Below are positions 7,444-22,914 of a stretch of DNA of 23,820 nucleotides, piece after piece. The position numbers were made by a program, and so were the translations under genes. This DNA comes from a virus, in the IMG/VR virus record IMGVR_UViG_3300020428_000083, positions 1-23,820 of that record; one strand, written 5' to 3'. The notes beneath the pieces were generated by a model. It was not told where the DNA came from. It made no database searches and saw nothing but the letters and a program-made list of their open reading frames with translations. The stretch's first letter is position 1. The number at the start of each line of letters is the position of its first letter.

Positions 7444-8591
7444 TAATTATCTGCCTTTGGTCTAAGTGCTTTTGATAGGCTTTGTCTTTCAGGAACTTGT
7501 TTTCCACCTATAGTATTTGTAGCTGTATTATTAATAAACGTACCTTTTTGTGTGTTACGATTATCAGTATTAGTAAGAGTCATTCTTACATTATCTTCAT
7601 ATTTAACCCATCTTGTACCATCATATCTAAATAACCGGTTTGGAGCAAAATCTGTACGTAGGAAAAAATCACCTGTTGCACTACTTAACGGAAAAGAAAT
7701 ACCGTGTCCAAAGTTACTTCCGTCTGGTACTCCACCGTCTCCTAATAAGTAGCCATTATATCCTTCTTTTGCAGGACTTACAGAGCTTGTAGTAACAGTA
7801 CTACCATCGTCACCAACTGTTTCAGTAAGACTTGTGTTGCCTTTACTGTCAGTTGAAAGAGTATAATAATGACTTATGTCATAACCACTTTTTGGTGCGT
7901 CAGCTTCTGCTTGTAATACAACAGCATCATTAATTTCTTTTTCTTTATTATATGTAGATAATACATCACGTAAACTAGGGCCACCACCTAAATCATCTTC
8001 TTTAGCTGCTCTATCTAATATATCTTTGTATTCTTGTGAATCTACTATTTGTTTTAGTTTTAATCTGTATAAATGCGGATACCAAGTTTGTGTAAATCCT
8101 TCTGCAGCTCTTGTTACATCTTCTATAACATAAAATCTTTTAAGAGCTACGTCAAAATCATTTAATGCGTATTCGTCTTTTAAATGTGGTAATTCTATTA
8201 CATCACCTGACATCAATTTTCTACCAAGAGTTTTTACACTGCTTCGTATATGTACAGTCATAAACAATGTATCATTACTTAAAAATAAACCAAACTGGCT
8301 TAAATCAAAATCAATATCTTGAACATTGTAAATACCACGCATTGAGTAGATGTCGGAATCATATTTTCTATCTCTATTTTCTAAAAATAGTAAATCTTGT
8401 ATATTTGTTTCATCTAATATATCACGTTTAGGTTGATCAGCAGTTGCATCCTCTTCACTTGGACTTTCTGGCCCTAAGTATTTGTGGACGTGAATGTCTG
8501 TTCCACCTACAGTGAACATTTCGTTAATTTGACGATCTAAAAATTCATAGTCGTTACTTTTATTTGGTTTATATAAACTAAGTCTTGGCAT
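7443..8591 (-). CDS. gp14: Neck protein (T4 gp14-like)
   Basis: 382 aa from the ATG at 8591 (MPRLSLYKPNKSNDY). A second in-frame ATG at 8597 would add two residues, but it overlaps the late promoter box and would lie upstream of the expected mRNA start. The N-terminal 190 residues resemble marine gp14 neck proteins (PRLSLY start, SQFGLFLSNDTLFMTVHI, LGRKLMSGDVIELPHL, FYVIEDVTRA, WYPHLYRLKL). The C-terminal part is low-complexity and carries a W-box (GDFFLRTDFAPNRLFRYDG). No Shine-Dalgarno sequence precedes the start, so translation from a leaderless mRNA is likely. In T4, gp13 and gp14 form the neck that joins filled heads to tails; here gp13 is the divergent neighbour. Confidence 0.82.
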   Translation of the reverse strand: MPRLSLYKPNKSNDYEFLDRQINEMFTVGGTDIHVHKYLGPESPSEEDATADQPKRDILDETNIQDLLFLENRDRKYDSDIYSMRGIYNVQDIDFDLSQFGLFLSNDTLFMTVHIRSSVKTLGRKLMSGDVIELPHLKDEYALNDFDVALKRFYVIEDVTRAAEGFTQTWYPHLYRLKLKQIVDSQEYKDILDRAAKEDDLGGGPSLRDVLSTYNKEKEINDAVVLQAEADAPKSGYDISHYYTLSTDSKGNTSLTETVGDDGSTVTTSSVSPAKEGYNGYLLGDGGVPDGSNFGHGISFPLSSATGDFFLRTDFAPNRLFRYDGTRWVKYEDNVRMTLTNTDNRNTQKGTFINNTATNTIGGKQVPERQSLSKALRPKADN

Positions 8592-8596
8592 ATACA

Positions 8597-8604
8597 TATT
8601 TATC
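8597..8604 (-). promoter_or_regulatory. T4-like late promoter box (GATAAATA) for gp14
   Basis: On the minus strand the sequence reads GATAAATA, then TGTAT, then ATG at 8591. With T4 geometry transcription would start at 8591, the A of the start codon. It is paired with a plus-strand box only five bases away. Confidence 0.7.
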
Positions 8605-8609
8605 GTAAC

Positions 8610-8617
8610 GATAAATA
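8610..8617 (+). promoter_or_regulatory. T4-like late promoter box (GATAAATA) for gp13
   Basis: GATAAATA preceded by C, in a near-perfect inverted repeat with the minus-strand box at 8597-8604. The predicted start near 8623 leaves a 16-base leader with GGAG (8625-8628) ten bases before the gp13 ATG at 8639. Confidence 0.7.
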
Positions 8618-8638
8618 CAATGACGGAGAACTATTTAC

Positions 8639-9397
8639 ATGAGTAGCCTAAAAACACAAAAACAAGAAGTATTTGATTATGTCTATGCCCTATTAGGTGG
8701 AGGTATGGTTGATGTAGAGCTAGATCCAGTGCATTATGAAACTGCATTAGGAAAAGCACTAGGAAAATTTAGACAACGTAGTGATAACAGTGTTGAAGAA
8801 TCATACATGTTTATGCCAACTGTAATAGATCAAAATGAGTACACATTACCAAGTGAAGTAGTTGAAGTTAGAAAATTATTTCGTAGAAGTGTAGGATCAA
8901 GAACAGGTGGTGGCGATGGCGGAACACTATTTGAACCTTTTAACTTAGCATATACTAATACTTACTTACTATCAAGTAGTAATATGGGCGGACTAGCTAC
9001 ATATGATATGTTTAGTCAGTATCAAGAACTAGTAGGACGTATGTTTGGATCATTTATAGAATTTAAATGGAATACACAAACTAAAAAATTAACACTACTG
9101 CAACGCCCAAGAACAGAAGAAGATTTATTATTGTATTGCTACAATTACAGAGGTGACGACCAATTACTAGACGATTACTTAGCAAAGCAGTGGATTAAAG
9201 ATTATACACTAGCTAATTGTAAATATATGTTAGGTGAAGCACGTTCAAAATTTGCTACTATATCAGGGCCGCAAGGAGGTTCAACTCTAAACGGTGATGC
9301 ACTTAAAGCCGAAGGTACAGCTGAAATGGAAAAATTAGAAGAAGAACTTAAAACAGCAGTAGCTGGCGGTGTTGGATACGGCTTCACAATTGGTTAA
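8639..9397 (+). CDS. gp13: Neck protein (T4 gp13-like)
   Basis: 252 aa (T4 gp13 is 309). The N-terminal pattern (VFDYVYALLGGGMVDVELDPVHYETALGKALGKFRQRS, then EYTLPSEVVEVRKLFRR) is that of gp13 neck proteins of marine T4-like phages. The centre holds the IEFKWNTQTKKLTLLQRPR hairpin, and a helical C-terminus follows. It acts with gp14 at the head-tail joint. GGAG provides the ribosome site. It is transcribed away from gp14 from back-to-back late promoters, unlike T4, where genes 13, 14 and 15 run in one direction. The next gene has its own early-type promoter. Confidence 0.85.
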   Translation: MSSLKTQKQEVFDYVYALLGGGMVDVELDPVHYETALGKALGKFRQRSDNSVEESYMFMPTVIDQNEYTLPSEVVEVRKLFRRSVGSRTGGGDGGTLFEPFNLAYTNTYLLSSSNMGGLATYDMFSQYQELVGRMFGSFIEFKWNTQTKKLTLLQRPRTEEDLLLYCYNYRGDDQLLDDYLAKQWIKDYTLANCKYMLGEARSKFATISGPQGGSTLNGDALKAEGTAEMEKLEEELKTAVAGGVGYGFTIG

Positions 9398-9404
9398 AAA
9401 ACAC

Positions 9405-9433
9405 TTGACATTAGATAAGTTTTAAAGTATAAT
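9405..9433 (+). promoter_or_regulatory. Sigma70-type early promoter (TTGACA, 17 bp, TATAAT)
   Basis: TTGACA at 9405-9410 and TATAAT at 9428-9433 both match consensus exactly, with the ideal 17-bp spacer. It lies between gp13 and the dNMP kinase, which fits an early gene set among late genes and read by the unmodified host polymerase. Confidence 0.85.
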
Positions 9434-9459
9434 AATAAAATTATATGGAGAAACAACAA

Positions 9460-10071
9460 ATGATTGTAGGTGTATGCGGCTTAATTGGCAGTGGCAAAGA
9501 TACTATTGCTTCTTATCTTATTGAAGAACACGGATATCAAAAAATAAGTTTTGCAGACAAATTAAAAGATTCTGTTGCAGAGCTATTTGATTGGGATCGT
9601 GAAATGCTTGAAGGTCAAACAGACGATTCGAGAGAGTGGCGAGAACAACCAGATAAATTTTGGACACAAGAAACAGGTAGAACAATTACACCAAGATTAG
9701 TATTACAAGAATTTGGTACTGAGTGTATGCGTAACGGTTTCTTTGATGGTATTTGGGTTAGCTCTACTAAACGTATACTAATTAATAATCCTCATAAAAA
9801 CTTTGTTATTCCAGATGTAAGATTTCCTAATGAAGCATTAATGTTGCAAAAAGTAGGAGGTCAAGTTTGGAGAGTAAGAAGAGGCACAGATCCTGTTTGG
9901 TTTAGAATGTATCAAGACATTGGAGTAGAACCTAAAGATATTCATCCTAGTGAATGGGCTTGGGCTAATACAAATTTTACAACAATATTTGATAATAACA
10001 GTACAATTGAAGATCTTAAAAATCAGGTACAAGGTCACCTTGCTTCCACTTTACACCCTGTTTCTGCATAA
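9460..10071 (+). CDS. gp1: Deoxynucleoside monophosphate kinase (T4 gp1-like)
   Basis: 203 aa from the ATG at 9460, chosen because GGAG (9447-9450) sits nine bases upstream; an in-frame ATG at 9445 would start before that site. The P-loop GLIGSGKD (residues 7-14) begins right after the first beta strand. FADKLKDSVAELFDW, LVLQEFGTE, VIPDVRFPNEA (about 116-126) and WRVRR fit the T4 gp1 / phage dNMP kinase family, which phosphorylates dNMPs for DNA synthesis. T4 gp1 is 241 aa. The last 18 codons overlap the converging HNH gene, and the C-terminal tail (GHLASTLHPVSA) does not look like conserved family sequence, so the end may have been reshaped by the HNH insertion. Likely early, from the consensus promoter just upstream. 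Confidence 0.88.
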   Translation: MIVGVCGLIGSGKDTIASYLIEEHGYQKISFADKLKDSVAELFDWDREMLEGQTDDSREWREQPDKFWTQETGRTITPRLVLQEFGTECMRNGFFDGIWVSSTKRILINNPHKNFVIPDVRFPNEALMLQKVGGQVWRVRRGTDPVWFRMYQDIGVEPKDIHPSEWAWANTNFTTIFDNNSTIEDLKNQVQGHLASTLHPVSA

Positions 10072-10351
10072 TACGCTGACAGTTAGCACATACAGTTTTT
10101 AAGTTATTAAATCTACAATTATTTAAATCACCGTCAATATGGTAAACATTAAACTGTTCAGTGTGTTTACTTTTAAATCCGCAACGTTCACATTCTTGTT
10201 TCTTTTCATACCCTTTTTGTTTCCATTTAGGTATGCCGTGATTTAATCCATTGCGTAAACATTTCTCGCACAAACTTCTATAAAAGGTTTTAGTTCCTTT
10301 TTTATAATTTATAGCAGCAGGTCGTTGTCCGCACTTGCATAAAGGTCTCAT
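10016..10351 (-). CDS. HNH endonuclease (homing-type)
   Basis: 111 aa. An N-terminal zinc knuckle (C5, C7, C28, C31) is followed by an HNH core: C54-x2-C57, YHIDGD (H71, D73, D75), NNCRFNNLKTVC and C88-x2-C91. The H-x-D-G-D ... N-N-L ... C-x2-C pattern is typical of small free-standing phage HNH nucleases, which nick or cut DNA and often promote their own spread. It runs against the surrounding genes and overlaps the end of the kinase by 56 bases, which fits a mobile insertion in the gene 1 / gene 18 gap. Upstream are GAGG ten bases before the ATG and a possible late box. Catalytic residues look intact. Confidence 0.9.
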   Translation of the reverse strand: MRPLCKCGQRPAAINYKKGTKTFYRSLCEKCLRNGLNHGIPKWKQKGYEKKQECERCGFKSKHTEQFNVYHIDGDLNNCRFNNLKTVCANCQRIMQKQGVKWKQGDLVPDF

Positions 10352-10355
10352 ATTG

Positions 10356-10363
10356 TATTTACC
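10356..10363 (-). promoter_or_regulatory. Possible late promoter box (GGTAAATA) for the HNH gene
   Basis: On the minus strand GGTAAATA ends five bases from the ATG at 10351, with GAGG overlapping its first bases. It could be a late box, or simply the spacer after a Shine-Dalgarno sequence, so it is weaker than the other boxes. The rest of 10352-10460 holds a short hairpin and the sheath promoter only. Confidence 0.35.
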
Positions 10364-10418
10364 TCACCTTTTCGGTGCCTTTTTATGGGGGTATATTATA
10401 GGGTTTTTGAAAATAAAT

Positions 10419-10426
10419 GCTAAATA
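10419..10426 (+). promoter_or_regulatory. T4-like late promoter box (GCTAAATA) for the tail sheath
   Basis: GCTAAATA lies 34 bases before the sheath ATG at 10461. The leader carries TAGGAGAA (about 10447-10454) as a strong ribosome site. Confidence 0.6.
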
Positions 10427-10460
10427 GTTATAACAAATCGTATCCAATAGGAGAAATATA

Positions 10461-13400
10461 ATGGCATTAACATCACCAGGTGTACAAGTAAGTGTAATAG
10501 ACGAAAGCTTCTACACCCCAGCAGAACCGGGAACAGTCCCAATGGTTTTTGTTGCATCGGCAGAGAACAGATTAAACAGTTCGGGCACAGGTACAGCAAC
10601 AGGAACATTAAAAGCAAACGCAGGTAAGCCTTTCTTACTTACTTCGCAGAGAGATCTTTCAGAAACTTTTGGAGATCCAGTATTTAAAACAGATTCAAAT
10701 AACAACCCAATACACGCAGGCGAGCTTAACGAGTATGGTTTACAATCTGCATATTCATTCTTAGGAGTGAGCAACAGAGCATACGTTGTAAGAGCAGACT
10801 TAGATACAGCTCAATTAGAGCCAACTGCAATAGCACCAGCGGCAAATCCAGCAGCAGGAACATATTGGTTTGATACACAAGTATCACTATTTGGTATTCA
10901 ACAATGGAACGGTAGCGCCATTACTACTACTGGTGGACAAAGTTTCACTAATAAAGTTCCTAGAATGATTACAGCAGCTAGTGACACTGATTCAGGCTCG
11001 TTAGTTACAAACGGATACGAAGGCATGAAACCTAAGAGCAGCATTGGTGCTGTTGGTGATTATGCTATTGTAGCAACAAGCACATTAAACAGATTATACT
11101 ACAGAAACACAAGCGGTACATGGGTATTAGTAGGTAGTGATCCTTGGTCAAAGAGTTGGCCAACAGTTAAAGGCACACTTGTTAATCCTTCATTTAGCGG
11201 ATCGAGTTCGTTTACAATTAACGGTACTGTTGTTTCTGTTTCAGGTTCAGATACAGTAACTGATGTTGCAGCAACAATTAACGGATTGTTAATTTCAGGT
11301 GTAACAGCTAGTGCTGTTGACGGAAGATTAGAAATTTACAGTGATGGAACAGGATCGGCTGCAGGTGATTCAACTGCCGGCGGTAACATTGATGTTGTTC
11401 AAAGTTCAGGAACTGCTTTAGGATTATTAGGTATTACAGCAGGAACTTACTATCCACCAGCATTACAAATTTCAGGACATACATCAGTTCCAGAATTTAA
11501 GTCAAGCGACACTTATTCAAGACCAACAGGTAGTGTATGGTTTAAAACTACACAACCTAACTTAGGTGCAAGAATAAGAATTAAAGAATGGAACGATCAA
11601 ACACTTTTATGGGACGCTGTGGAAGCTCCAATTTACGACACTAACGAAGCAGCACTTTACGGTTTAGATAAAGCTAACGGTGGAAGCGGTATTGCAGTAG
11701 GCGATGTATTTGCTAAATCAAATACAGCAGGTGACACACAACCTCTTGCAACGTTTACTTTATACCGTAGATCAAACAGTGGTGTTACAAGTATTACTAG
11801 TAGCAAAGTAATTGCAGGAAGCCTAGGTTCAGGATCTAAGAGTTTTAATATTAAAGCAACAGATGCTGGGCAAACTTCTTGGGGTACAACTAGTACAGTA
11901 ACATTTACAGCTGGCGGTGTTGCAGGTGATGCAAGTTTACTTGCAGGTGCAATCAATGATAAAAATATTGAAAACGTAAGTGCATCAGTAGATACGCAGA
12001 ATAGAGTTGTAATTAGTCACTCACAAGGTGGCGATATACACCTAACAGACACAAGTGGTGCATTAGCTGGTATAGGTTACGCACCATATGTTAGTGCAAC
12101 TAGTGGTACTGTTGGCTTATCATATGCAGACGGAACTAACTCTAGCACAAGTCCAAATCAATTTATTGCAAGTAACTGGGCAGTGTTAACTTACACAGCA
12201 TCAGACAATGCACCTACAGCAACAGCAACTAACGGCCAACTTTGGTATAGTTCAGTTGTTGATGAAGTAGATTTACTTGTACACAACGGTACAACATGGG
12301 TAGGTTACTTATATAACGGTGGCACATCAGGAATAACAGCAAGTCCATATTACAACGCTGATGCATCATTAACACCAGACCCAAGTGGTCCAATTGTTAG
12401 TGCATCAGAACCAACTGTACAGTCAGACGGTACTGCACTTAAAACAGGTGATATTTGGATTAGCACAGCAGACTTAGAAAACTATCCAACAATGTATAGA
12501 TATAATGCGGCACTTGCTTCAGGATTAAGATGGGTACTATTAGATAGCAGTGATCAAACATCAGAAGATGGTATACTATTTGCTGATGCAAGATATGCTA
12601 CATCAGGTGGTACTGCTTCTTTATTAGAAGCTTCAAGCATTGAAGATTTACTTAACAGTGCTTACTTAGACACTGATGCTCCAGATCCAGCACTATATCC
12701 AAAAGGTATGTTGTTATGGAATACTAGACGTTCAGGATTTAACGTTAAGAAATTTGTAAGAAACTATGTTGATGTTTCTACAGACAACACAAGATATGCA
12801 CCAGGTGGAAGCGATGAGAGCATGGACAGTTACTATCCACACAGATGGGTAACTGAGTCAGGTAATCAAGAGAACGGCGCAGGTAGCTTTGGACGTAAAG
12901 CACAACGTAAAGTTGTTGTACAAGCGTTACAAGCAGTAGTTAATAAAAACGATGACATTAGAGATGATGAGTCAAGATTATTCAACTTAATGGCAACACC
13001 AGGATATCCAGAACTAATTGGTGAAATGATTAGCTTGAATAACGATAGAGGATTAACAGCATTTATCGTAGGTGATAGTCCGTTTAGACTAACACCAGAT
13101 GCAACATCACTTAATAACTGGGCAACTAACGTAAACAAAGCAGTAGAAGATAACGACAATGGATTAGTAAGTAGAGATGAATACTTAGGTGTATTTTATC
13201 CAGCAGGATTCACAAGTGATAACTTTGGTAGAAATGTTGTAGTTCCAGCTTCGCACATGATGTTAAGAACTATTGCATTAAGTGATCAAGTTAGCTATCC
13301 ATGGTTTGCACCAGCAGGCACAAGACGTGGCGGAATCAGCAATGCAAGTTCAACAGGTTATATTAATAGCGAAGGCGAATTTACAGCAGTAGCACTTAAT

Positions 13401-13832: not shown

Positions 13833-13835
13833 ATT

Positions 13836-13843
13836 GATAAATA
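13836..13843 (+). promoter_or_regulatory. T4-like late promoter box (GATAAATA) for the tail tube
   Basis: GATAAATA lies three bases after the sheath stop. The leader carries TAGGAGC, and the tube ATG is at 13867. A separate promoter lets tube be made independently of sheath. Confidence 0.72.
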
Positions 13844-13866
13844 ATACTACAATAGGAGCAAATTAA

Positions 13867-14493
13867 ATGGCAGTTTCAACATTATCAAATATTACAGTAC
13901 CTTTAGCAGGGGGGCAAAGTGCAACTACTCAAGGTTTGTTGATGCCGAAGCTTCAATATCGCTTTAGGGTGTCACTTGAAAACTTTGGTGTTAGTACACC
14001 AACTACAGAACTTACAAAACAAGTTATTGATGTGACTCGTCCTACGGTAGCGTTTGAACCAATACAAATTGATGTATACAACTCAAAAGCATACTTAGCA
14101 GGTAAACATACTTGGTCACCAATTACACTAAACTTACGTGAAGACGTAAACCGTGAAGTTCAAAAACTTGTTGGTGAGCAGTTGCAGAAACAATTCGACT
14201 TTTTCGAACAGTCAAGTGCAGCATCAGGACAAGATTATAAATTTACAACACGTATTGAAATCTTAGACGGTGCAAATGGAAACACAACTCCAACAGTACT
14301 TGAAACGTTTGAATTATATGGTTGCTTTGTTACAAATGCAAACTACAATACATTAGCATATGCTAACAATGAGCCAGTAACAATTACACTAGAAATGCAG
14401 TATGATAACGCTATTCAGACAGATGCTGAAGGCGGAATTGGTACAGCAGTAGGTAGAGCCGGTGGATCTTTGATCACAGGCGGCGGATCTTAA
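13867..14493 (+). CDS. gp19: Tail tube protein (T4 gp19-like)
   Basis: 208 aa (T4 gp19 is 163). The core pattern is MPKLQYRFRVSLENFG, KQVIDVTRPTVAF, HTWSPITLNLREDVN, FELYGCFVTNANYNTLAYANNEPVTITLEMQYDNA, the usual order of the phage tube beta-barrel fold. The C-terminal 20 residues are a Gly-rich tail. It stacks as hexameric rings inside the sheath. A late box and a strong ribosome site lie upstream, and a strong terminator directly follows, so sheath and tube form a closed expression unit. The next gene is a divergent relative of this protein. Confidence 0.92.
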   Translation: MAVSTLSNITVPLAGGQSATTQGLLMPKLQYRFRVSLENFGVSTPTTELTKQVIDVTRPTVAFEPIQIDVYNSKAYLAGKHTWSPITLNLREDVNREVQKLVGEQLQKQFDFFEQSSAASGQDYKFTTRIEILDGANGNTTPTVLETFELYGCFVTNANYNTLAYANNEPVTITLEMQYDNAIQTDAEGGIGTAVGRAGGSLITGGGS

Positions 14494-14515: not shown

Positions 14516-14548
14516 AATAAAGGGGCTTTTATAGCCCCTTTATTTTTA
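14516..14548 (+). terminator. Rho-independent terminator after the tail tube gene
   Basis: A perfect 12-bp stem (AATAAAGGGGCT with AGCCCCTTTATT, 14516-14527 and 14533-14544), a 5-base loop TTTAT, and a T-rich tail. It separates the sheath-tube unit from the next late promoter. Confidence 0.93.
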
Positions 14549-14569: not shown

Positions 14570-14577
14570 GATAAATA
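14570..14577 (+). promoter_or_regulatory. T4-like late promoter box (GATAAATA), leaderless type
   Basis: GATAAATA, then TTAGT, then the ATG at 14583. With T4 late-promoter geometry the mRNA starts at the A of the start codon. No Shine-Dalgarno sequence is present. Confidence 0.72.
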
Positions 14578-14582
14578 TTAGT

Positions 14583-15878
14583 ATGGGAAAGTTCAACGGA
14601 TTTTTAGATAACATAGCAGACGGCCTTACTAATCCTAAGGGCAACTTAGGAGATTGGGCACACGCTAGACGCCTTTATGTAGATGATAATCTACGATTAG
14701 CACCTAAGCAAAAATTCTTATATCACTGTCATTTTACATTAGATCCTGTAGTTAGATCTATTATTCCTGATCTTGTTGACAAACATAACTTAGAAATAGG
14801 TATGCTTGTAAAGTCTGCAGAGTTACCTAAGTATTCAGCGGCAGTAGAAACAAAAAACAAGTATAATAGAAAAAAGAATATACAAACAAATATACAGTAC
14901 GAACCAATTACTATTACATTCCATGATGATAACTTTGGTGTTACTACTGCATTATTAGAAGCGTATTATAGATATTATTTTGCTGATGCAAACTATGGTA
15001 CTATGCCTGGAGCATACAGTAAAACAGCAGGAGGAATGGACAACACATACTTAGGTAGTGGAAGAAATCAAGATAAATTTGGTTTAGATAATAATATAAG
15101 TGTTCCATTTTTTCAAAATATACAAATTTCACAAATGGCTAGAAAGTCATTTACTACACATACTTTAGTAAATCCAATTATTACTAACTGGCAACATGAT
15201 TCATTAGATAACGGTGATGGTAGTACGACACTAGTTAATACCATAACACTCTTATATGAAGCAGTTTGGTATGATCGAGGTGAAGTACAAGCCGGTGCAA
15301 ACGGAAGTCCAAAAGGATTTGGATCACCAGATCATTACGATAGAGTACCTAGTCCAATTACAATTATTGGCGGCGGCCAATTAGGGTTAGGCGGTATCTT
15401 TGGTACTGCAATAGATTTATATGATTATATAATGAAGGGTAAAAACTTTAGTAATCCGTTACAAGCAGGATTAGCTGCTGTAAACTTAATAGGTAATATA
15501 CGTAACTTATCTAAAGAAGGACTACGCCAAGAAGGATTTAATTTACTTACAAAAGCAATAGGCAGTGCAGCAGGAGTAGATGTATCAGGAGTACAACGTA
15601 CATTTTTTCCAAAGTCTAGTAATGGCGGAGGTAAAGCAAAAGACTTAGCAATAGCAACAGCAGTTGTAGCAGGTGGATCGTTTGCTGTTAATGCATTTCA
15701 AAAAAATCAAGCACGTAACGGAAATGCAAAAGTTGCAGATAGTCTTGGATTTAAAAGTTATCAAAAAACATATCAAACAGCCGGGGGCACAGGTGGAGTT
15801 AACGGAGCAAAAACATCTTGGGAAAATTTAAACTCATCTGACAAACAAACATATATAAACGAAGCAATAGGAACTTAA
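14583..15878 (+). CDS. Tail tube-domain protein, candidate baseplate-tube initiator (gp54-like)
   Basis: 431 aa. Residues about 40-240 follow the tube protein order: KFLYHCHFTLD matches KLQYRFRVSLEN of gp19, MLVKSAELPKYSAAVETKNKYNRKKNIQTNIQYEPITITFHDD matches its joint-loop and core, and a late strand TLLYEAVWYDRG follows. In T4 the tube-like proteins beside gp19 are gp48 and gp54, which start the tube on the baseplate; the long C-terminal extension and the place right after gp19 fit such a role, but this is inference. The C-terminal part is Gly/Ala-rich with a hydrophobic stretch (LAIATAVVAGGSFAV, about 357-371). Start without Shine-Dalgarno but exactly six bases after a late box. Confidence 0.6.
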   Translation: MGKFNGFLDNIADGLTNPKGNLGDWAHARRLYVDDNLRLAPKQKFLYHCHFTLDPVVRSIIPDLVDKHNLEIGMLVKSAELPKYSAAVETKNKYNRKKNIQTNIQYEPITITFHDDNFGVTTALLEAYYRYYFADANYGTMPGAYSKTAGGMDNTYLGSGRNQDKFGLDNNISVPFFQNIQISQMARKSFTTHTLVNPIITNWQHDSLDNGDGSTTLVNTITLLYEAVWYDRGEVQAGANGSPKGFGSPDHYDRVPSPITIIGGGQLGLGGIFGTAIDLYDYIMKGKNFSNPLQAGLAAVNLIGNIRNLSKEGLRQEGFNLLTKAIGSAAGVDVSGVQRTFFPKSSNGGGKAKDLAIATAVVAGGSFAVNAFQKNQARNGNAKVADSLGFKSYQKTYQTAGGTGGVNGAKTSWENLNSSDKQTYINEAIGT

Positions 15879-15879
15879 T

Positions 15880-16254
15880 ATGGCGCAAACAAACTTACCA
15901 GTAACTCCAGCAAAGAAAGGAAGCGATAGTGATGTAAAGAATTTCTTTAATCAATACTTTACAGAAAAACTTTCATTTCCATCTAATGATGTAGATGCAG
16001 TTATAGGATTTTTTGAGTCAAGAGATTTTGAACGGACTGCGGCAATTAGTGTTGCTACAGCATTATTAGAACAAGCAAAAATAGACGATGTAAAAGTATT
16101 TAAATTACTTGATACGCTTAAAGGATTAGACAATGTACAACTTAGCGTAGTAGTAGGAGAAGTTTTAAACTTTAATAGATCTAAAACATCTACATTAGGT
16201 TTTAAACGTGATAGTAATGTATCTAAACTTGAGCAACGTAATGTAAAGGTATAA
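15880..16254 (+). CDS. Conserved-looking virion-module protein of unknown function
   Basis: 124 aa, mostly helical after a disordered N-terminus (VTPAKKGSDSD). The core DAVIGFFESRDFERTAAISVATALLEQAKIDDVKVFKLLDTLKGLDNVQL resembles a short protein I associate with structural modules of marine T4-like phages, but I cannot name its function. It starts two bases after the preceding stop, with AGGAA as ribosome site, and ends one base before gp4, so it is made with the tube-like protein and the head-completion nuclease. A small baseplate or head-tail assembly factor is possible. Confidence 0.7.
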   Translation: MAQTNLPVTPAKKGSDSDVKNFFNQYFTEKLSFPSNDVDAVIGFFESRDFERTAAISVATALLEQAKIDDVKVFKLLDTLKGLDNVQLSVVVGEVLNFNRSKTSTLGFKRDSNVSKLEQRNVKV

Positions 16255-16255
16255 G

Positions 16256-16690
16256 ATGTCTCGTTTTGCTCAAGGCAAGTATACCTTAAAAAATCCCGAA
16301 AAATATTCTGGAACTAAAACTCCTACTTACCGTAGTAGTTGGGAATTTGCCTTTATGCGTTTCTGTGACGAGCATCCTAGTGTAAGTCAATGGGCTAGTG
16401 AAGCAGTACGCATACCATATAAAAATCCACTTACAGGTAAGCACACTATATATGTGCCAGACTTTTTTATTGTATACTCAGATCAAAAAGGCAAACAACG
16501 AGTAGAACTAATAGAAGTTAAACCTGCAAATCAAACAATTAAAGAAAAACTAGGAAGATCAAGACACAATCAAGCGGCATGGGTAGTCAATCAAGTTAAG
16601 TGGGAAGCGGCTAGAGCATGGTGCAGACAAAAGAAAATATTTTTTCGTGTAGTAACGGAAACTGATATTTTCCATCAAGGAAGTAGATAA
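16256..16690 (+). CDS. gp4: Head completion nuclease (T4 gp4-like)
   Basis: 144 aa (T4 gp4 is about 150). The order YRSSWEFAFMRFCDEHPSVSQWASEAVRIPYKNP, YVPDFFIVY, ELIEVKPANQ matches the gp4 / TnsA-like nuclease fold. Likely active-site residues are Glu49, Asp69 in VPDF and Glu87-x-Lys89 in EVK, a PD-(D/E)xK arrangement. In T4, gp4 (4/50) completes the packaged head so that it can join the tail. AAGG precedes the start, and its stop overlaps the next ATG by one base (TAATG). Confidence 0.85.
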   Translation: MSRFAQGKYTLKNPEKYSGTKTPTYRSSWEFAFMRFCDEHPSVSQWASEAVRIPYKNPLTGKHTIYVPDFFIVYSDQKGKQRVELIEVKPANQTIKEKLGRSRHNQAAWVVNQVKWEAARAWCRQKKIFFRVVTETDIFHQGSR

Positions 16691-17292
16691 TGTTAGATTA
16701 TGAAACATATAAAGAAAAAATGTTAACTATTGCAAACCAATACGATAAAAGAGCTCGAGGAGGAAAGTATATCCGTAAGTGGGATTATCATTGGTTAGAA
16801 AAAAAGTTTTTTTATGACTACGGAGATTTTAGTAATATGAAAACAGTTATTGACATAGGAACAGGAGTCGGTATGCTACCGTACTTGCTTATGTCAAAAG
16901 GCCACCAAGTTGAAGCTACAGATATAGCAGAAGATATTTCAGGACCTATGTTTACACAATGTTGTGATTTAATTGGTCTTAAAAGACATTCATTGTTTAT
17001 AAATGATAGTAAGCCAATGGACTTTCCAGGAAAATACGATATGCTTGTTGCTACTAGAACTGAGTTTGATAGAGAGTGTTTAACACCCGGTGATATATTT
17101 AATTGGAAGTTCTTTTTAGATGATGCGTTTAAATACGTAAAAAGAGTATATATAAAAACAAATTTTGCTGGAAGTGGTAACCATTTTCCTGATTATATAC
17201 GTCCTTTTGTAAGTAATCCCGGCGGTCCAGGAACTGGATTAGGTAAACCTTATAGAGCATATTACATAAAAGTAGATAAAGACCAATGGTAA
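16690..17292 (+). CDS. SAM-dependent methyltransferase-like protein
   Basis: 200 aa. A helical N-terminus (about 1-48) leads into a class I Rossmann core: VIDIGTGVGMLPYLL (motif I, residues 53-67, with G57, G59 and G61), the acidic end of strand 2 at Asp78 (VEATDI), and strand 4 at KYDMLVAT. Motifs for DNA (DPPY/NPPY) or RNA methylation are absent, so the substrate is unclear. FNWKFFLDDAFKYVKRVYIKTNF resembles the later strands of small-molecule or protein methyltransferases. Translationally coupled to gp4 with AAGGAAG as ribosome site, and followed at once by a late promoter for gp16. A methyltransferase inside a head-completion and packaging cluster is unusual. Confidence 0.72.
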   Translation: MLDYETYKEKMLTIANQYDKRARGGKYIRKWDYHWLEKKFFYDYGDFSNMKTVIDIGTGVGMLPYLLMSKGHQVEATDIAEDISGPMFTQCCDLIGLKRHSLFINDSKPMDFPGKYDMLVATRTEFDRECLTPGDIFNWKFFLDDAFKYVKRVYIKTNFAGSGNHFPDYIRPFVSNPGGPGTGLGKPYRAYYIKVDKDQW

Positions 17293-17293
17293 G

Positions 17294-17301
17294 GATAAAT
17301 A
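17294..17301 (+). promoter_or_regulatory. T4-like late promoter box (GATAAATA) for gp16
   Basis: GATAAATA follows the methyltransferase stop by one base. TAGGA (17316-17320) and the ATG at 17328 lie in the expected leader. Confidence 0.72.
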
Positions 17302-17327
17302 ATAGTAGCAGTTAATAGGAATATACT

Positions 17328-17819
17328 ATGACTAAAAAACTTGAAGAAATGTTAAACTTGCCTGATTCTAAAGAACTTATCGAAAAAGCTAAGAATAAAG
17401 ATAAAGCAGAAACAGCAGTAATAGAACAAAAAGAAACAATGCGTGATATTGCTGAGTTTGACAAAATAGCGGCCGCATTACCAGCTGTAAAAGGCTTAGG
17501 TGAAATGGCGGATAAGGAACTAAACGAAGTTGCTCAAAAAGCAATGGATGCCTATGACGATTTAATGGATTTAGGTATGAACGTTGAAAGCCGTTATAGT
17601 GGCCGAGTATTTGAAGTTGCTGGCGGAATGCTTAAAACTAGTTTAGATGCTAAAGTTGCAAAAATGGATAAGAAACTTAAAATGATAGAATTACAACTTA
17701 AGAAAGAAAAACTTGATAACGACTCTGGACCAAATGAAGACGGCATAGTAAATGGCGAAGGTTACGTAGTATCAGATCGTAATACTTTGCTAGAGAAACT
17801 GCGTAATATTGATAAATAA
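17328..17819 (+). CDS. gp16: Terminase small subunit (T4 gp16-like)
   Basis: 163 aa, practically the length of T4 gp16 (164). The C-terminal half has the pattern of marine phage gp16: AYDDLMDLGMNVESRYSGRVFEVAGGMLKTSLDAKVAKMDKKLKMIELQLKKEKLD, a long coiled coil that in T4 builds the small-terminase ring and regulates gp17 cutting and packaging. The N-terminus is a charged helical stretch. gp17 lies two genes downstream rather than adjacent. Its last codons (Asp-Lys-stop) contain the next late promoter box. Confidence 0.85.
   Translation: MTKKLEEMLNLPDSKELIEKAKNKDKAETAVIEQKETMRDIAEFDKIAAALPAVKGLGEMADKELNEVAQKAMDAYDDLMDLGMNVESRYSGRVFEVAGGMLKTSLDAKVAKMDKKLKMIELQLKKEKLDNDSGPNEDGIVNGEGYVVSDRNTLLEKLRNIDK
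17811..17818 (+). promoter_or_regulatory. T4-like late promoter box embedded in the end of gp16
   Basis: GATAAATA overlaps the final Asp, Lys and stop codons of gp16. AAGGAA (17825-17830) and the ATG at 17839 follow in good spacing. Confidence 0.65.
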
Positions 17820-17838
17820 TGTATAAGGAATAGGTAAT

Positions 17839-18408
17839 ATGAAAAATTTTATAGATATACTTACAGAGTCTGCAAAAACTTATAAGTTCAAAATTAGAAT
17901 AGCTGGCGAAATGCCAGAAGGTTTCCAAGACACAATGGAAACAGCATTACAAAAATATGAACTTATAAATTGTAGTGCAGGTAAGCGTACACCTATTCAG
18001 GAAAAACCTTTAGATTTTCCACAACTACAAAATATGGAAGTACACAACTTTGAATGCGAAGTAAAGTATCCTACAACTCCGCATGTACTAGAACATTATC
18101 TAGTAAATGCATGTGGTGTAACACACAGCCATATTATTGTTAGAGGTGAAAATGATCCTATTGAAACTCAACAGGATGGAATTGCTTCTTCGGAAACATA
18201 TCAATCTATGCTAGATACAGAAGAAATGAGTAAACCAGATCCAGAAGCTCACAAACAAGTTGGCGGTGGTAGAGTTATGGAATTACTTAAAGAACTGGAA
18301 AAAGCATCTAAAGAAAAAGAAATAGATCCTATTGCAGATATAAAACCTGGCGATAGTAAAGATATTTCACCAGAACAAAATAATACAAGTCCAATAGGGA
18401 GCAAATAA
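17839..18408 (+). CDS. Unknown protein with capsid-targeting-like N-terminus
   Basis: 189 aa. The N-terminus MKNFIDILTES resembles the capsid targeting sequence of T4 internal head proteins (MKTYQEFIAE), including a possible gp21 prohead-protease site after Leu-Thr-Glu. The core (YKFKIRIAGEMPEGFQDTMETALQKYE, SAGKRTPIQEKPLDFPQL, EVKYPTTPHVLEHYLVNACG, HIIVRGENDP, about 16-115) looks well folded and similar to proteins of other marine T4-like phages that I cannot name. The last 60 residues are charged and disordered. It lies between gp16 and gp17, with its stop overlapping the next ATG (TAATG), so a head or packaging role is inferred. Confidence 0.72.
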   Translation: MKNFIDILTESAKTYKFKIRIAGEMPEGFQDTMETALQKYELINCSAGKRTPIQEKPLDFPQLQNMEVHNFECEVKYPTTPHVLEHYLVNACGVTHSHIIVRGENDPIETQQDGIASSETYQSMLDTEEMSKPDPEAHKQVGGGRVMELLKELEKASKEKEIDPIADIKPGDSKDISPEQNNTSPIGSK

Positions 18409-19211
18409 TGAAATTAGTGGATCTTAAAGATTTATATAAAGAAATAGTTCTAATCGACGAGGGTAAAGATAAGTTACCTTCAAAAGCACACGTAATGAAG
18501 ATGTGTAAAGATGGAATGACAAAAGCAGAAATGTGCAAGATGCATCCAAACTGTGATCAAGACAAACTTAAAGCTATGATCGATGATTGTAAAAAAGAAA
18601 TGAAAGAAAACGTTAACGAAGCTTCGTCAATGAATATTTCAATGTCAGGTGAAACATCGTCAGAAGTTGCAGAGTTAATGAACATGCTTAAAAATGCAGG
18701 AATGCCTGATGCTAAACCAGTAGGTCCAGTATCGCTTCCGATGGACGGACCAATGGACGGACCAATGGACAGACCAAATGACGGTCATGATGACATGGTA
18801 TCTAAATTAAAAATGCTTGGCAAACAAGGACCAGCATCAAGTCCATGTGAAGATGATGTTGAAGAAGATGATAGATATTCAGCAAGTACAGAACCTGATC
18901 CAGAATATAAAGATGATGATTATATGATTCATGACTTAGCAGGTGGTTTAAATAGAAGTAAAAAACAATACACTAAAGCACAAGATGGCGACAATCCAAT
19001 AGCTGTAGAAAATAGCATTTATGAAGAATTAAAAGCTAGATACGAAGCAGCTAAAGCAGAAGCTAAATTTGACGAAATGGGCTGTAAAAAAGAAATGATG
19101 AAACTTAACGCAAGTGGTTGTACAAAAGAATCTATGTATAAAAAAGTTAACGCAGAATATAATTGCGGAAGAGAAAAGTTTGAAAAGTTATACGCAAGTA
19201 ATTGTGGTTAA
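18408..19211 (+). CDS. Unknown acidic protein with duplicated Cys-rich, HTH-like modules
   Basis: 267 aa. An N-terminal module (about 28-66: MKMCKDGMTKAEMCKMHPNC, then DKLKAMIDDCKKE) and a C-terminal module (about 228-267: MMKLNASGCTKESMYKKVNA, then NCGREKFEKLYASNCG) look like copies of one motif: M-K, three residues, G, T-K, M, K, N-C, K and a closing Cys. The GMTKAEM...C pattern also suits a helix-turn-helix. Between them are MNISMSGETSSEVAELMNMLKNAG, a Pro/Met/Asp repeat, and an acidic stretch (EDDVEEDD). GGGAG precedes the start, coupled to the previous gene. A terminator follows, so this closes the gp16 unit just before gp17. A DNA or packaging-related role is plausible but unproven. Confidence 0.72.
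   Translation: MKLVDLKDLYKEIVLIDEGKDKLPSKAHVMKMCKDGMTKAEMCKMHPNCDQDKLKAMIDDCKKEMKENVNEASSMNISMSGETSSEVAELMNMLKNAGMPDAKPVGPVSLPMDGPMDGPMDRPNDGHDDMVSKLKMLGKQGPASSPCEDDVEEDDRYSASTEPDPEYKDDDYMIHDLAGGLNRSKKQYTKAQDGDNPIAVENSIYEELKARYEAAKAEAKFDEMGCKKEMMKLNASGCTKESMYKKVNAEYNCGREKFEKLYASNCG
18741..18776 (+). repeat. Three 12-bp tandem repeats coding MDGP
   Basis: Two exact copies of ATGGACGGACCA and a third with one change (ATGGACAGACCA), coding MDGPMDGPMDRP inside the linker of the Cys-module protein. Likely made by replication slippage and able to vary in copy number. Confidence 0.9.
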
Positions 19212-19235
19212 TAATAATTAACTCCCTCCAGACTC

Positions 19236-19262
19236 AATAGGGCCTACGGGCCCTATTTTTTT
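19236..19262 (+). terminator. Rho-independent terminator before gp17
   Basis: A 9-bp stem (AATAGGGCC with GGCCCTATT, 19236-19244 and 19249-19257), a TACG tetraloop and a run of seven T. It ends the gp16 unit immediately before the gp17 late promoter. Confidence 0.93.
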
Positions 19263-19263
19263 G

Positions 19264-19271
19264 GTTAAATA
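19264..19271 (+). promoter_or_regulatory. T4-like late promoter box (GTTAAATA) for gp17, leaderless type
   Basis: GTTAAATA, then CTTAT, then the gp17 ATG at 19277, the same five-base spacing as at 14570 and 8597. No Shine-Dalgarno sequence is present. Confidence 0.65.
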
Positions 19272-19276
19272 CTTAT

Positions 19277-20857
19277 ATGAGCAAAAGTTTAGACGGCGTT
19301 TTAACAAAAAAAGCCAATCAAAAAGAAACATTTACAGAAGATCAAATACAAGACCTTGCTAAATGCATGGATCCTAAAGAAGGATACTTATATTTTGCAC
19401 GTAAGTTTGCGTATATACAGCATCCTGTAAAAGGTAAGTTACTGTTTGATCCTTACATATATCAAGAAGGTCTAATGCTTAGTTACCATAACCATCGTTT
19501 TAATATAAACATGTTACCAAGGCAAACAGGTAAAACTACATGCGCCGGCATTTACTTGTTATGGTACGCTATGTTTAATCCAGACCAAACAATACTTATT
19601 GCCGCACACAAGTATGCAGGTGCTCAAGAGATTATGCAACGTATTAGATACGCATATGAACTATGTCCTGATCATGTTAGAGCAGGTGTTACAAACTACA
19701 ACAAAGGTAGTATGGAGTTTGAAAACGGATCACGTATTGTTAGTGCTACTACAACAGGAAACACAGGACGTGGTATGAGTATTTCATTATTATACTGTGA
19801 CGAGTTTGCATTTGTTAATCCGGGTATTGCACAAGAGTTTTGGACTTCGATATCACCTACACTAGCAACAGGTGGTCGTGCTATTATTACTAGTACACCT
19901 AATTCAGATGAAGATACATTTGCTACTATTTGGAAACAAGCCGAAGAGAAGTTTGACGAACACGGTAATGAGCAAGAGATAGGCATAAATGGATTCCACA
20001 GTTTTACATGTTCGTGGGACGAACATCCTGACAGAGACGACGAATGGAAAGTAGAAGAAATTGGTCGAATTGGTGAAGAAAGATTTAGGCGTGAATATGG
20101 TTGTGAATTTTTAGTATATGATGAAACATTAATTAACAGTATTCATTTAGCAAACATGGAAGGATCACAACCTTTAATGAATATGGGTCAGACACGCTGG
20201 TATAAAAAGATAATGAAAAATCAAACATATTGCATAGCACTAGATCCTGCAATGGGTACTGGGGGCGACTTTGCTGCAATACAAGTATTTGAAGTACCTA
20301 GTTATGAACAAGTTGCAGAATGGCGACACAACACTTCTCCTATTCCTACACAAATACGAATATTAAAAGATATATGTGATTATATTCAAGAACAACAAGA
20401 TTCGTCTAGTGGTATATATTGGAGTGTTGAAAATAACTCAATAGGTGAAGCCGCACTAATTGTTATTAATGATTTTGGTGAAGAAAATATCCCTGGTATG
20501 TTTGTAAGTGAACCTATACGTAAAGGACATGTACGTAAGTTTCGAAAAGGATTCAATACAACACACGGTACAAAAATCAGTGCATGTGCTAGACTAAAAA
20601 CTATGATAGAAAATAACAAAATGAAATTACATTCTGGGGCTTTATTAAGTGAACTTAAAGGTTATATTGCAACAGGAAATAGTTTTAAAGCTAAAACAGG
20701 CGATACTGATGATCTTGTAAGTGCAGTGCTTCTAGTCATTAGAATGATGGTTGTATTAAAGGATTGGGATCCAAGAGTATACAATACCTTTGTAACTATA
20801 GAAAATGAGGAAGATTATGAACCGCCAATGCCTATATTTGTTTCTACCAATTATTGA
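19277..20857 (+). CDS. gp17: Terminase large subunit (T4 gp17-like)
   Basis: 526 aa (T4 gp17 is 610). ATPase: Walker A LPRQTGKTT (80-88), Walker B LLYCDE (171-176, catalytic Glu176) and coupling motif TSTPN (205-209). Nuclease: Asp323 (CIALDPAMGTGGDF), Glu385 (WSVENN) and Asp478/Asp479 (GDTDDLVSA), matching the three acidic residues of the T4 headful nuclease. It pumps DNA into proheads at the portal and cuts the concatemer. It has its own late box after a terminator, so it is regulated apart from gp16. Its stop codon overlaps the late box of the next gene. Confidence 0.97.
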   Translation: MSKSLDGVLTKKANQKETFTEDQIQDLAKCMDPKEGYLYFARKFAYIQHPVKGKLLFDPYIYQEGLMLSYHNHRFNINMLPRQTGKTTCAGIYLLWYAMFNPDQTILIAAHKYAGAQEIMQRIRYAYELCPDHVRAGVTNYNKGSMEFENGSRIVSATTTGNTGRGMSISLLYCDEFAFVNPGIAQEFWTSISPTLATGGRAIITSTPNSDEDTFATIWKQAEEKFDEHGNEQEIGINGFHSFTCSWDEHPDRDDEWKVEEIGRIGEERFRREYGCEFLVYDETLINSIHLANMEGSQPLMNMGQTRWYKKIMKNQTYCIALDPAMGTGGDFAAIQVFEVPSYEQVAEWRHNTSPIPTQIRILKDICDYIQEQQDSSSGIYWSVENNSIGEAALIVINDFGEENIPGMFVSEPIRKGHVRKFRKGFNTTHGTKISACARLKTMIENNKMKLHSGALLSELKGYIATGNSFKAKTGDTDDLVSAVLLVIRMMVVLKDWDPRVYNTFVTIENEEDYEPPMPIFVSTNY

Positions 20858-20863
20858 TAAATA
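20856..20863 (+). promoter_or_regulatory. T4-like late promoter box (GATAAATA) after gp17
   Basis: GATAAATA begins inside the gp17 stop codon and ends nine bases before the ATG at 20872. The predicted leader is only two or three bases, and there is no Shine-Dalgarno sequence. Confidence 0.7.
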
Positions 20864-20871
20864 CTTGCAAC

Positions 20872-22914
20872 ATGGATAAGAACTTAAACGTAATAGCAGA
20901 AGAGCTTTTTAATAAAATCAGGGGAAGATTCCCATCTGTAACAATTGGTAACGACGAAGGTAAAGTTACTAATGTACCTACCGAAGCTAGATTTTTTGAT
21001 TTTAACTTTACAGAAGGGGCTAATGACTTAGGTAAAGTAAGTATTAGTTTAGAAGACAAAGCGATTGCTATAATGTATAGTAACAGTTTTATCACAGCAG
21101 AAGATACTTTAACAAAAAACAAATGGTACGATTTTTTAAAAGAGATAAGATTTTTTGCTAAGAAAAGATTACTTAACTTTGATACAAGAGACATAACTAA
21201 GAGTAACTTAAACAAAAGAGATTATAAGTTTTTAGCATCAAATACCGGAGAGCAAACAATGTCAGAATCGAAATTATACGGAACAAGCCGTATTAGCTAT
21301 CAGGATGTTGATTCAGCAAGAATAAACATTAGGCATAATAGATCAGTAAACCCTGATTTACCAGCAGGTAGAACACAATACATCGAAACAATTTACATAG
21401 AAAGTTCAGACGGTGAACGCTTTAAATATCCATACAAACATCTAAGTGGTGCAAGAGCAATGGCAAGACACGTTGCTGAAGGTGGCAAACCATACGATAA
21501 ATTTGGAACACAAATTGTAGGTCTTAGTGAAGAATTAGCAAAACTTAAAAAATTTAAAATGGCATTAGGTCGTAATAACATTATGGCTGAAGGATTATCA
21601 GAATATACTAGTATTGTTACAGATCGTATTGAAGAAATTAAAGAAGGTATTCTTGCTTTACAAACTAAAGAAGCATATGAAATTACAAAAGAAACATTTG
21701 AACATATTTCTGTAGAAGAGAAGACAACCATGCCTGATGAGACTGCTGCTAATTGGATTGATCAACTAACAGTAAAACAATTTAACGAAGAACTTAAAGA
21801 TACTTTTCCTTTTGTATATAGATTAGTAAAAGAAAAAACAACACCTAAAGAACTTAATAACATGGAAGATTTGTTAGGTGAAAATCAAATTGATGAAATT
21901 GCTGGTCCGGTAATAAAGGTTGCAAAAGAACTTTTTACAGCGGCAGGTTTTTCAAAAAAGATTGTAGCTGCACTTGCAACAGTAGGAGGTCTATTTGGAC
22001 TTAAAAAGTTATTAGAAATTACAAGTCTAAAAAATAGCCCATTAGGTAAAGCAATAAAAGCAAAATGTGATTCTGGAGACCCAACAACAATAGTTGACAG
22101 TAATGGTAAAGAATTAGGGTGGTGTGAGCACTATGATCTATTAGACTTATATGCAGAAGCAGATAACTTATCTATTTGGACATTACACTCAATAGTATAT
22201 GATGACAGTCCTTATAAAAATAATCCATATGTAATACGTAGACTGAATAAAGGTCAGTCAGATGAATCAAATGATACTATCGATGTAAAGTTTGGCAAAG
22301 ACGGAAGTATGGAAAAAGCAGATGATAAACCTAAAATTCCAGTAAGTGAATTTATTTTATCATTGTTTGATAGAAACAAAGGTACTTTTCCAAAAGGTGA
22401 AACAGCAGTATTAACAGCAGTAGAAAAAGATTATGGCGAACAGTATATCAACCCTGCTAAACAGTTTATTGAAAAAATTACTACAAAGTTTGAAGAGTTA
22501 AACACAGAAGGCAATGCATACGCACACGCTGTAAGAAAAGCCAAAATGAATGGCAAGAAAAAAGGTGATGTAGTTGACGGCCCAGACGGCGACAAAATTG
22601 AATTAGAAAAGTTTGACCCAAGACAAGAACAAAGCCGTGAAGCTCAAGCAATGGAAGAACTAATGACAGCATATGAGCAAGGTGGCGAAGAATCCCTAGC
22701 AAAAGAAATGGGAATAACTACGCAAGAACTTGATCAAGAAATCAATGAAATGGGTAGAGAACATAACTTACACCCAGACGATGATAGAGATGAAATTATC
22801 GAACGTGTTGTTGAAGCAACAGTTGACAATGCTGATTGGGAAGAACAGTTTGAAGCTATGCAACGATTAGCTGGTTTAGACAGTCAAAAAAAAAGACTAA
22901 CGAATCAAAGTTAG
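20872..22914 (+). CDS. Large unknown protein downstream of terminase, possibly virion-associated
   Basis: 680 aa from the ATG at 20872 (MDKNLNVIAEELFNK). A TTG at 20854 is in frame but lies in the late box and in gp17. The N-terminal 300 residues form a folded domain (FFDFNFTEGANDLGKVSISLED, WYDFLKEIRFFAKKRLLNFDTRDI, LYGTSRISYQ, YIETIYIESSDGERFKYPYKHLSGARAMARHVAEGG) that resembles proteins I associate with uncultured marine T4-like phages, of no known function. Residues about 355-385 are hydrophobic (AGFSKKIVAALATVGGLFGL) and could be amphipathic or membrane-active. The C-terminus is charged and helical. The frame ends just after a nine-A run at 22886-22894, where a -1 shift would join it to the next ORF. 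Confidence 0.8.
   Translation: MDKNLNVIAEELFNKIRGRFPSVTIGNDEGKVTNVPTEARFFDFNFTEGANDLGKVSISLEDKAIAIMYSNSFITAEDTLTKNKWYDFLKEIRFFAKKRLLNFDTRDITKSNLNKRDYKFLASNTGEQTMSESKLYGTSRISYQDVDSARINIRHNRSVNPDLPAGRTQYIETIYIESSDGERFKYPYKHLSGARAMARHVAEGGKPYDKFGTQIVGLSEELAKLKKFKMALGRNNIMAEGLSEYTSIVTDRIEEIKEGILALQTKEAYEITKETFEHISVEEKTTMPDETAANWIDQLTVKQFNEELKDTFPFVYRLVKEKTTPKELNNMEDLLGENQIDEIAGPVIKVAKELFTAAGFSKKIVAALATVGGLFGLKKLLEITSLKNSPLGKAIKAKCDSGDPTTIVDSNGKELGWCEHYDLLDLYAEADNLSIWTLHSIVYDDSPYKNNPYVIRRLNKGQSDESNDTIDVKFGKDGSMEKADDKPKIPVSEFILSLFDRNKGTFPKGETAVLTAVEKDYGEQYINPAKQFIEKITTKFEELNTEGNAYAHAVRKAKMNGKKKGDVVDGPDGDKIELEKFDPRQEQSREAQAMEELMTAYEQGGEESLAKEMGITTQELDQEINEMGREHNLHPDDDRDEIIERVVEATVDNADWEEQFEAMQRLAGLDSQKKRLTNQS
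22886..22894 (+). other. Candidate -1 ribosomal frameshift site (A9 run)
   Basis: In the upstream frame the run reads A AAA AAA followed by AGA, a slippery heptamer (22887-22893). The upstream frame stops at 22912-22914. The -1 frame is open from 22854 and leads without a stop into the 118-aa ORF. A short stem CTAAC/GTTAG (22897-22901, 22910-22914) lies downstream but is weak and close. Confidence 0.5.

Follow-up and report, generated by a model that had tools for sequence, protein, structure and literature searches.

The cI transcript of phage lambda is a known leaderless mRNA. Phage transcripts are described as often leaderless in a paper on phage AR9 (PMC5312081), and according to another, leaderless mRNAs are also believed to occur in Prochlorococcus, which cyanophages infect (PMC5607370). 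Late promoter boxes of T4 occupy positions -13 to -6 relative to the start site (PMC1524935), and late promoter prediction in pelagimyophages was unsuccessful in a 2020 study (PMC7029224). The DNA analyzed here, referred to as the window, is the whole 23.8-kb stretch (23,820 nt) of IMG/VR virus record IMGVR_UViG_3300020428_000083. Its T4-type virion genes include those for the large terminase, the tail sheath and tube, and a head-tail adaptor. Among deposited phages, the nearest to its large terminase, at 54%, are PA5oct, a jumbo phage of Pseudomonas, and the relatives of PA5oct. In four genes of the window, an 8-bp box of the T4 late type lies just 5' of the ATG. These genes very probably form a conserved class of leaderless late genes, with leaders of 0 to 3 nt, in the phage family of the window. 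Their boxes are arranged as follows.

8604-8597 (element 8589..8604), minus strand: close box GATAAATA of gp14, 5-nt spacer, ATG at 8591
14570-14577 (element 14570..14585), plus strand: close box GATAAATA of the tube-like protein gene (14583-15878), 5-nt spacer, ATG at 14583
19264-19271 (element 19264..19279), plus strand: close box GTTAAATA of the gp17 large terminase gene (19277-20857), 5-nt spacer, ATG at 19277
20856-20863 (element 20856..20874), plus strand: close box GATAAATA of a virion structural protein gene (20872-22914), 8-nt spacer, ATG at 20872, box overlapping the gp17 stop

The spacers of 5, 5, 5, and 8 nt, to which an earlier note on this DNA had drawn attention, are read directly off the sequence. 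TAAATA occurs 33 times in the window (both strands), and at that number only 0.08 of 23 genes would be expected to carry one 4 to 8 nt before the ATG; the probability of four or more is 1.2e-6. All seven exact copies of GATAAATA in the window are sense-oriented and lie just 5' of a gene, and the same pattern read backwards does not occur in it. TATAAATA with one mismatch shows no window-wide enrichment (98 versus 85 +/- 9, with 10 of 100 shuffles as high). The signal in the window is the position of the boxes, not their number. The gene called gp14 by the earlier note (8591-7443, minus strand) belongs to PHROG 11591, a virion structural protein, and another in-frame ATG, at 8597, overlaps its box.

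Six further genes carry their box at a greater distance and are herein called leadered.

3099..3126, plus strand: box AATAAATA of a baseplate/tail fibre connector gene, 17-nt spacer with GAGG, ATG at 3124
8610..8617, plus strand: box of the gp13-like head-tail adaptor gene, divergent from gp14, 21-nt spacer with GGAG, ATG at 8639
10419..10463, plus strand: box GCTAAATA of the gp18 tail sheath gene, 34-nt spacer with Shine-Dalgarno sequence, ATG at 10461
13836..13869, plus strand: box GATAAATA of the gp19 tail tube gene, 23-nt spacer with AGGAG, ATG at 13867
17294..17330, plus strand: box of gene 17328 (gp16, a weak match to the terminase small subunit), 26-nt spacer
17811..17841, plus strand: box of virion structural gene 17839, 20-nt spacer, ATG at 17839

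These distant boxes had been placed at 18 to 35 bases by the earlier note; they are present, with spacings of 17 to 34 nt.

The arrangement was followed through homologues by four scans of viral contigs with window proteins, which yielded at least 312 loci; the best 80 per scan were taken, and the counts cover the nearest relatives. Gene starts were placed by protein alignment and identical 80-nt upstream regions counted once. Homologues whose alignment started beyond residue 25 were set aside, as were those with less than 80 nt between the start and the contig end. Loci with a match, loci with a usable start, and distinct homologues numbered 188, 166, and 103 for gp17; 190, 183, and 103 for the tube-like gene; 112, 112, and 73 for gp14; and 178, 177, and 104 for 20872. 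The first two figures include the window's own pieces (L001-L007), which are excluded from the distinct counts. A close box is found in all 73 gp14 homologues at 5 to 8 nt (63 at 5), in 92 of 103 tube-like homologues at 4 to 8 nt (exactly 5 in 82), and in 86 of 103 gp17 homologues at 4 to 5 nt, a figure that rises to 96 with the variant TAAGTA added. For 20872, it is found in 103 of 104 at 4 to 8 nt (47 at 5), and the remaining one has TAAGTA. The 5-nt spacers comprise 35 distinct sequences in gp17, 12 each in the tube-like gene and gp14, and 17 in 20872. Their letters vary at constant length, and spacer length is therefore conserved more than the letters. The gp17 boxes vary in their first two bases, which are mostly GT or AG. 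Hence, the conservation of close spacing that the earlier note had proposed to look for holds for gp14, the tube-like gene, and gp17; in 20872 the box stays close, within 4 to 8 nt, but not at five.

The leadered genes keep their greater distance: 31 to 47 nt in 88 of 88 gp18 homologues, 15 to 26 nt in 91 of 92 for gp19, 16 to 26 nt in 65 of 69 for gp13 (four at 3 nt), 16 to 30 nt in 100 of 103 for 17839 (three at 5, 6, and 11), and 15 to 18 nt in 10 of 11 for 3124. For gp16, the box lies at 21 to 29 nt in 82 of 100, at 12 to 15 in seven, and at 5 and 8 in two, with nine boxless. Median box-ATG distances in five leadered genes are 18 to 37 nt. A coincidence in an AT-rich genome, in which TAAATA is frequent (35% G+C in G001, a family contig described below), has a practically negligible probability in view of the window statistic and of the conservation across 73 to 104 distinct homologues per gene; moreover, the AT-rich genomes of T4, PA5oct, and 121Q (33-35% G+C) have no close-box excess.

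The two classes also differ in their ribosome-binding sites. A loose Shine-Dalgarno pattern is matched by none of 73 gp14, one of 104 20872, and four of 103 gp17 upstream regions. It is present in 88/88 for gp18, 91/92 for gp19, 64/69 for gp13, and 11/11 for 3124. The clear Shine-Dalgarno sequence that had been claimed for all six leadered genes is thus borne out in these four; the pattern, which misses AGGAA-type sites, is rarer in 17839 (64/103) and gp16 (24/100). Clear Shine-Dalgarno leaders precede the genes for sheath, tube, and capsid. The start codon of the close-box genes is ATG in 103/103 (gp17), 102/103 (tube-like), 73/73 (gp14), and 104/104 (20872), although this is weak evidence, as the setting of starts favored ATG.

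A pyrimidine-purine step marks the region past the box in leadered genes, in which these bases are free of any constraint from a start codon. It lies 5/6 nt past the box in gp16, gp18, and gp19 (fractions of 0.89, 0.92, and 0.90) and 4/5 nt past it in 17839 (0.77). Close-box genes mostly have the A of their ATG where the leadered genes show this step. Counting the TAAGTA variants, 351 of 365 close-box rows have a pyrimidine at -1 of the ATG, as would be expected ahead of a start site: 96/96 for gp17, 92/92 for the tube-like gene, 73/73 for gp14, and 90/104 for 20872.

Terminator-like structures stand directly before two of the close boxes.

14516..14547, plus strand: terminator-like hairpin and T-run, separated by 22 nt from the tube-like gene's box
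19236..19262, plus strand: terminator-like hairpin with T-run, one base between the T-run and the gp17 box

A hairpin with T-run within 55 nt 5' of the ATG occurs in 61/103 gp17 and 74/103 tube-like homologues, in 0/73 for gp14 and 0/104 for 20872, and in 0/452 upstream regions of five leadered genes. The boxes of gp14 and gp13 are five bases apart, with the genes diverging. The terminators before the gp17 and tube-like boxes and the divergence of gp14 therefore leave scant space for a leader. The same observations bear on an alternative in which the boxes are ordinary late promoters, translation relies mainly on longer read-through messages, on coupling, or on AU-rich initiation free of Shine-Dalgarno sequences, and compact genomes account for the spacing. 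It draws on 20872, which starts 14 nt past the gp17 stop and whose box the gp17 TGA overlaps, and on window genes 1499 and 9445, which likewise have little Shine-Dalgarno pairing. The terminators and the divergent gp14 argue against it, and compactness predicts neither the pyrimidine at -1 nor the peak of box-ATG distances at 4 to 5 nt with few boxes at 6 to 14. This alternative is very unlikely.

The arrangement has also been altered naturally in some relatives. In two gp17 loci, L317 and L300, an insertion parts the box from the gene, and an ATG remains at box+5. It opens a mini-gene of 7 (MSMWEVE, L317) or 13 codons (MSNLSVIQNCEVK, L300), the stop of which overlaps the gp17 ATG as ATGA in both. 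These mini-genes are likely leader peptides with translation coupled to gp17, and an ATG at box+5 is the pattern expected if that place is a functional start. A tree built from 102 tube-like proteins has the close-box form around two separate groups without a close box (one row and nine rows). Eight of these ten rows have a more distant box with a Shine-Dalgarno sequence and two have neither. The tree was quickly built and midpoint-rooted, with some long branches, and the direction of change suggested by it is to be read accordingly.

On a genome scale, genes with a box 4 to 6 nt before an in-frame ATG were counted on simple gene calls and evaluated by Poisson statistics against ten control hexamers. 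The 147-kb contig G001 (L248), matched at 100% by two query proteins, holds a further part of the window phage. It has 9 close-box genes among 120 (0.67 expected), and three further family contigs have 24/397 (2.1; G002), 12/180 (1.0; G003), and 7/136 (0.75; G004), with P from 1e-5 to 1e-17. The Pelagibacter phage HTVC008M has 12/170 (0.5 expected). Mosig, like HTVC008M a pelagimyophage, is weakly enriched (6/168, 1.96 expected, P 0.015), as is Melnitz, which infects OM43 (3/173, 0.47 expected, P 0.012). No significant excess is found in T4 (1/213, 1.45 expected), KVP40 (0/334, 0.5), Syn9 (0/161, 0.5), S-PM2 (1/182, 0.25), PA5oct (2/339, 2.7), or 121Q (1/484, 1.5). All 13 phages and contigs counted also have genes with more distant boxes. 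Two isolated TAAATA-N5-ATG sites, preceded by a pyrimidine, occur in KVP40 at 11536 and 222067. As a raw pattern, TAAATA-N5-ATG is more frequent than its backward control in nine of nine family contigs, clearly in five (G001 8/1, G002 21/4, G006 6/2, G007 4/0, G008 8/1). In other phages, the figures are 16/7 for HTVC008M, 6/3 for S-PM2, 10/12 for T4, 3/7 for Syn9, 20/30 for PA5oct, and 6/25 for 121Q; the Prochlorococcus phage P-SSM2 has no raw excess (6 versus 10). The close-box class is a trait of some T4-type phages and not of others. It occurs in two distant lineages and mostly in different genes. A gp25-like baseplate gene with a close box is common to G001 and G002, and HTVC008M gene 31132, annotated as a baseplate wedge subunit, would share it if it is gp25.

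In HTVC008M, 12 of 13 close-box ATGs were compared with the annotation, and all 12 are annotated gene starts. Two genes of this phage, 18916 (minus strand) and 18943 (in L442), diverge with their ATGs 26 bp apart, forming two back-to-back box+5 units. Relatives were taken from the best 80 IMG/VR loci found with the HTVC008M gp54 query; herein, after the T4 gene numbers, gp2 stands for the gene annotated as DNA end protector, gp54 for that of the baseplate tail tube cap, and gp4 for that of head closure. The close box is kept in gp54 (31/34 at 5 nt, three farther), gp2 (33/33 at 5-8 nt), and in part in gp4 (19/34 at 5-7 nt, four farther, 11 boxless) and the tape measure gene (2/4). The -1 base is a pyrimidine in 28/33 gp2 and 32/34 gp54 upstream regions. 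A box within 60 nt is mostly absent from neighboring genes of these relatives (gp48 50/50, tube 35/36, hub 23/28).

Boxes of the form TATAAATA or NATAAATA, 8 bp long and in sense orientation, are found 5' of late genes, as in T4-type late promoters. A gp55-like late sigma is present in all four contigs G001-G004 (HTVC008M gp55 query, E 2e-10 to 5e-14; frames of 281-286 aa). In the proposed mechanism, this sigma and RNA polymerase would read the box and start transcription on the A of the ATG itself or 1 to 3 bases before it, and the ribosome would initiate on the 5'-terminal AUG without a Shine-Dalgarno sequence. The remaining late genes would use a similar promoter placed about 15 to 47 bases upstream, in most cases followed by a Shine-Dalgarno leader. 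For 20872, a leader of about 3 nt is expected. We infer the actual 5' ends and the translation as leaderless mRNA from sequence. That late genes fall into two classes, leaderless and leadered, as the earlier note had put it, is well backed by spacing conservation, the start-site signature, terminators, mini-genes, and gene counts.

Several observations weigh against this reading. Neither form of the close box is found in 7/103 gp17 and 11/103 tube-like upstream regions, and the spacer of 20872 varies in length among homologues. This gene also follows gp17 directly without a terminator between, and the gp17 message could cover it. The loose Shine-Dalgarno pattern matches 30/103 tube-like upstream regions, of which eight are true leadered variants; the others, as read by eye and uncounted, are AAGG or AGGA adjoining the box. 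The raw-pattern excess is smaller in G003 (14/7), G004 (6/4), G005 (9/6), and G009 (6/5). A T4 gp45 (clamp) query has no match in G001-G004, PA5oct, or 121Q, and the contigs may be incomplete. Some leadered genes, too, often have a pyrimidine at -1 (gp13 53/69). The step is divided in gp13 (0.51 at 4/5 and 0.46 at 5/6), stands at 0.60 at 4/5 and 0.10 at 5/6 in the 10 rows of 3124, and is also frequent 2/3 nt past the box in both classes (mean 0.51). The start-site signature is therefore supporting, not decisive. The steps at 2/3 nt, together with the 8-nt spacer of 20872 in the window, would suit a start site 2 to 4 nt past the box and hence leaders of 1 to 3 nt rather than zero. Such a shift is unlikely, given the stronger steps at 4/5 or 5/6 in gp16, 17839, gp18, and gp19 and a T4 geometry with the start six bases past the box (PMC1524935); leaders of 1 to 3 nt would in any case still be too short for a Shine-Dalgarno sequence.

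A fifth window gene has a close box, at 4 nt.

10016..10363, minus strand: HNH endonuclease gene with box GGTAAATA 4 nt before the ATG at 10351, overlapping GAGG as a possible Shine-Dalgarno sequence

This gene (10016-10351) is antisense to the end of a dNMP kinase gene, and G002 contains an open frame of equal length with a nearly identical upstream region. Elsewhere in the window, cysteine dioxygenase-like and NUDIX hydrolase genes (5218-5574 and 5583-6050, minus strand) lie within the structural cluster. Upstream of the baseplate/fibre gene, the protein of 1499-3100 matches PHROG 3677, a family of phage proteases; its best match is PHROG 9158, of unknown function.

What the class serves is a matter of speculation; a leaderless design might keep low-copy assembly proteins low. 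Low or host-dependent translation, the effect proposed in the earlier note, is likewise conjecture. By T4 analogy, we take several close-box genes to encode low-copy parts. The products of gp13 and gp16 are low-copy as well, yet these genes are leadered, and stoichiometry is therefore only a hypothesis. Dependence on host or lineage fits the distribution among phages, which does not show it. Four SAR11 genomes contain TATAAT-N6-ATG 155 times versus 115 for the backward pattern, in a crude count. Leaderless mRNAs are believed to exist in Prochlorococcus (PMC5607370), although its phage P-SSM2 has no raw excess and the two Synechococcus phages counted by gene, S-PM2 and Syn9, lack the class. A SAR11-only trait is spoken against by the slight excess in the OM43 phage Melnitz, and an alphaproteobacterial host as a general cause by Atu_ph07 (17 versus 26 in the control), Phosso (4 versus 2), and phiM12 (0 versus 0). 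Ribosomal protein bS21 is found in G002, HTVC008M, PA5oct, Atu_ph07, and Phosso; of 18 records searched, the remaining 13 gave no match. The G002 gene (L532) lies at 332212-332364 of 357 kb. Phage bS21 was rejected as the cause: PA5oct has bS21 but no leaderless class, and G001, which does have the class, shows no bS21 match in its 147 kb. In a broader, quite improbable scenario, some marine T4-type phages evolved a 13-bp unit (8-bp box and 5-bp spacer) that fuses promoter to start codon, perhaps repeatedly and in answer to their hosts; low-copy assembly proteins would then be made late from leaderless messages by ribosomes tuned to a 5'-terminal AUG, possibly with phage bS21.

In these marine phages, pelagimyophages included, late promoters and true gene starts can be located by the rule of box, 4 to 5 nt, and ATG. 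The isolated pair of HTVC008M and Pelagibacter makes it possible to test leaderless translation in marine bacteria and in the phages that infect them. Searches of the open-licence PMC literature turned up no description of leaderless late genes as a class in T4-type phages.

Several known systems are close to the family. The late promoters of T4 (TATAAATA, served by gp55/gp33/gp45) have the same kind of 8-bp box, and the family encodes a gp55-like sigma. In contrast to T4, the first bases of the family box vary and are often G, and the close class, 4 to 8 nt before the ATG, is seen in the family and not in T4. The cyanophage late promoter NATAAATA of S-PM2 and Syn9 has the same box sequence as that of the family (PMC2984593). 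In these two phages, the gap between box and ATG is mostly 15 to 36 nt (35 and 36 cases) and seldom 6 to 14 (three and three). HTVC008M shares the close-box class, mostly in other genes than the window family; its large terminase gene, unlike gp17 of the family, lies within an operon and has no close box. Leaderless mRNAs in general are like those predicted for the family in their 5'-terminal AUG without a Shine-Dalgarno sequence. The family differs from them by fusing a dedicated phage late promoter to several start codons—an arrangement kept family-wide.

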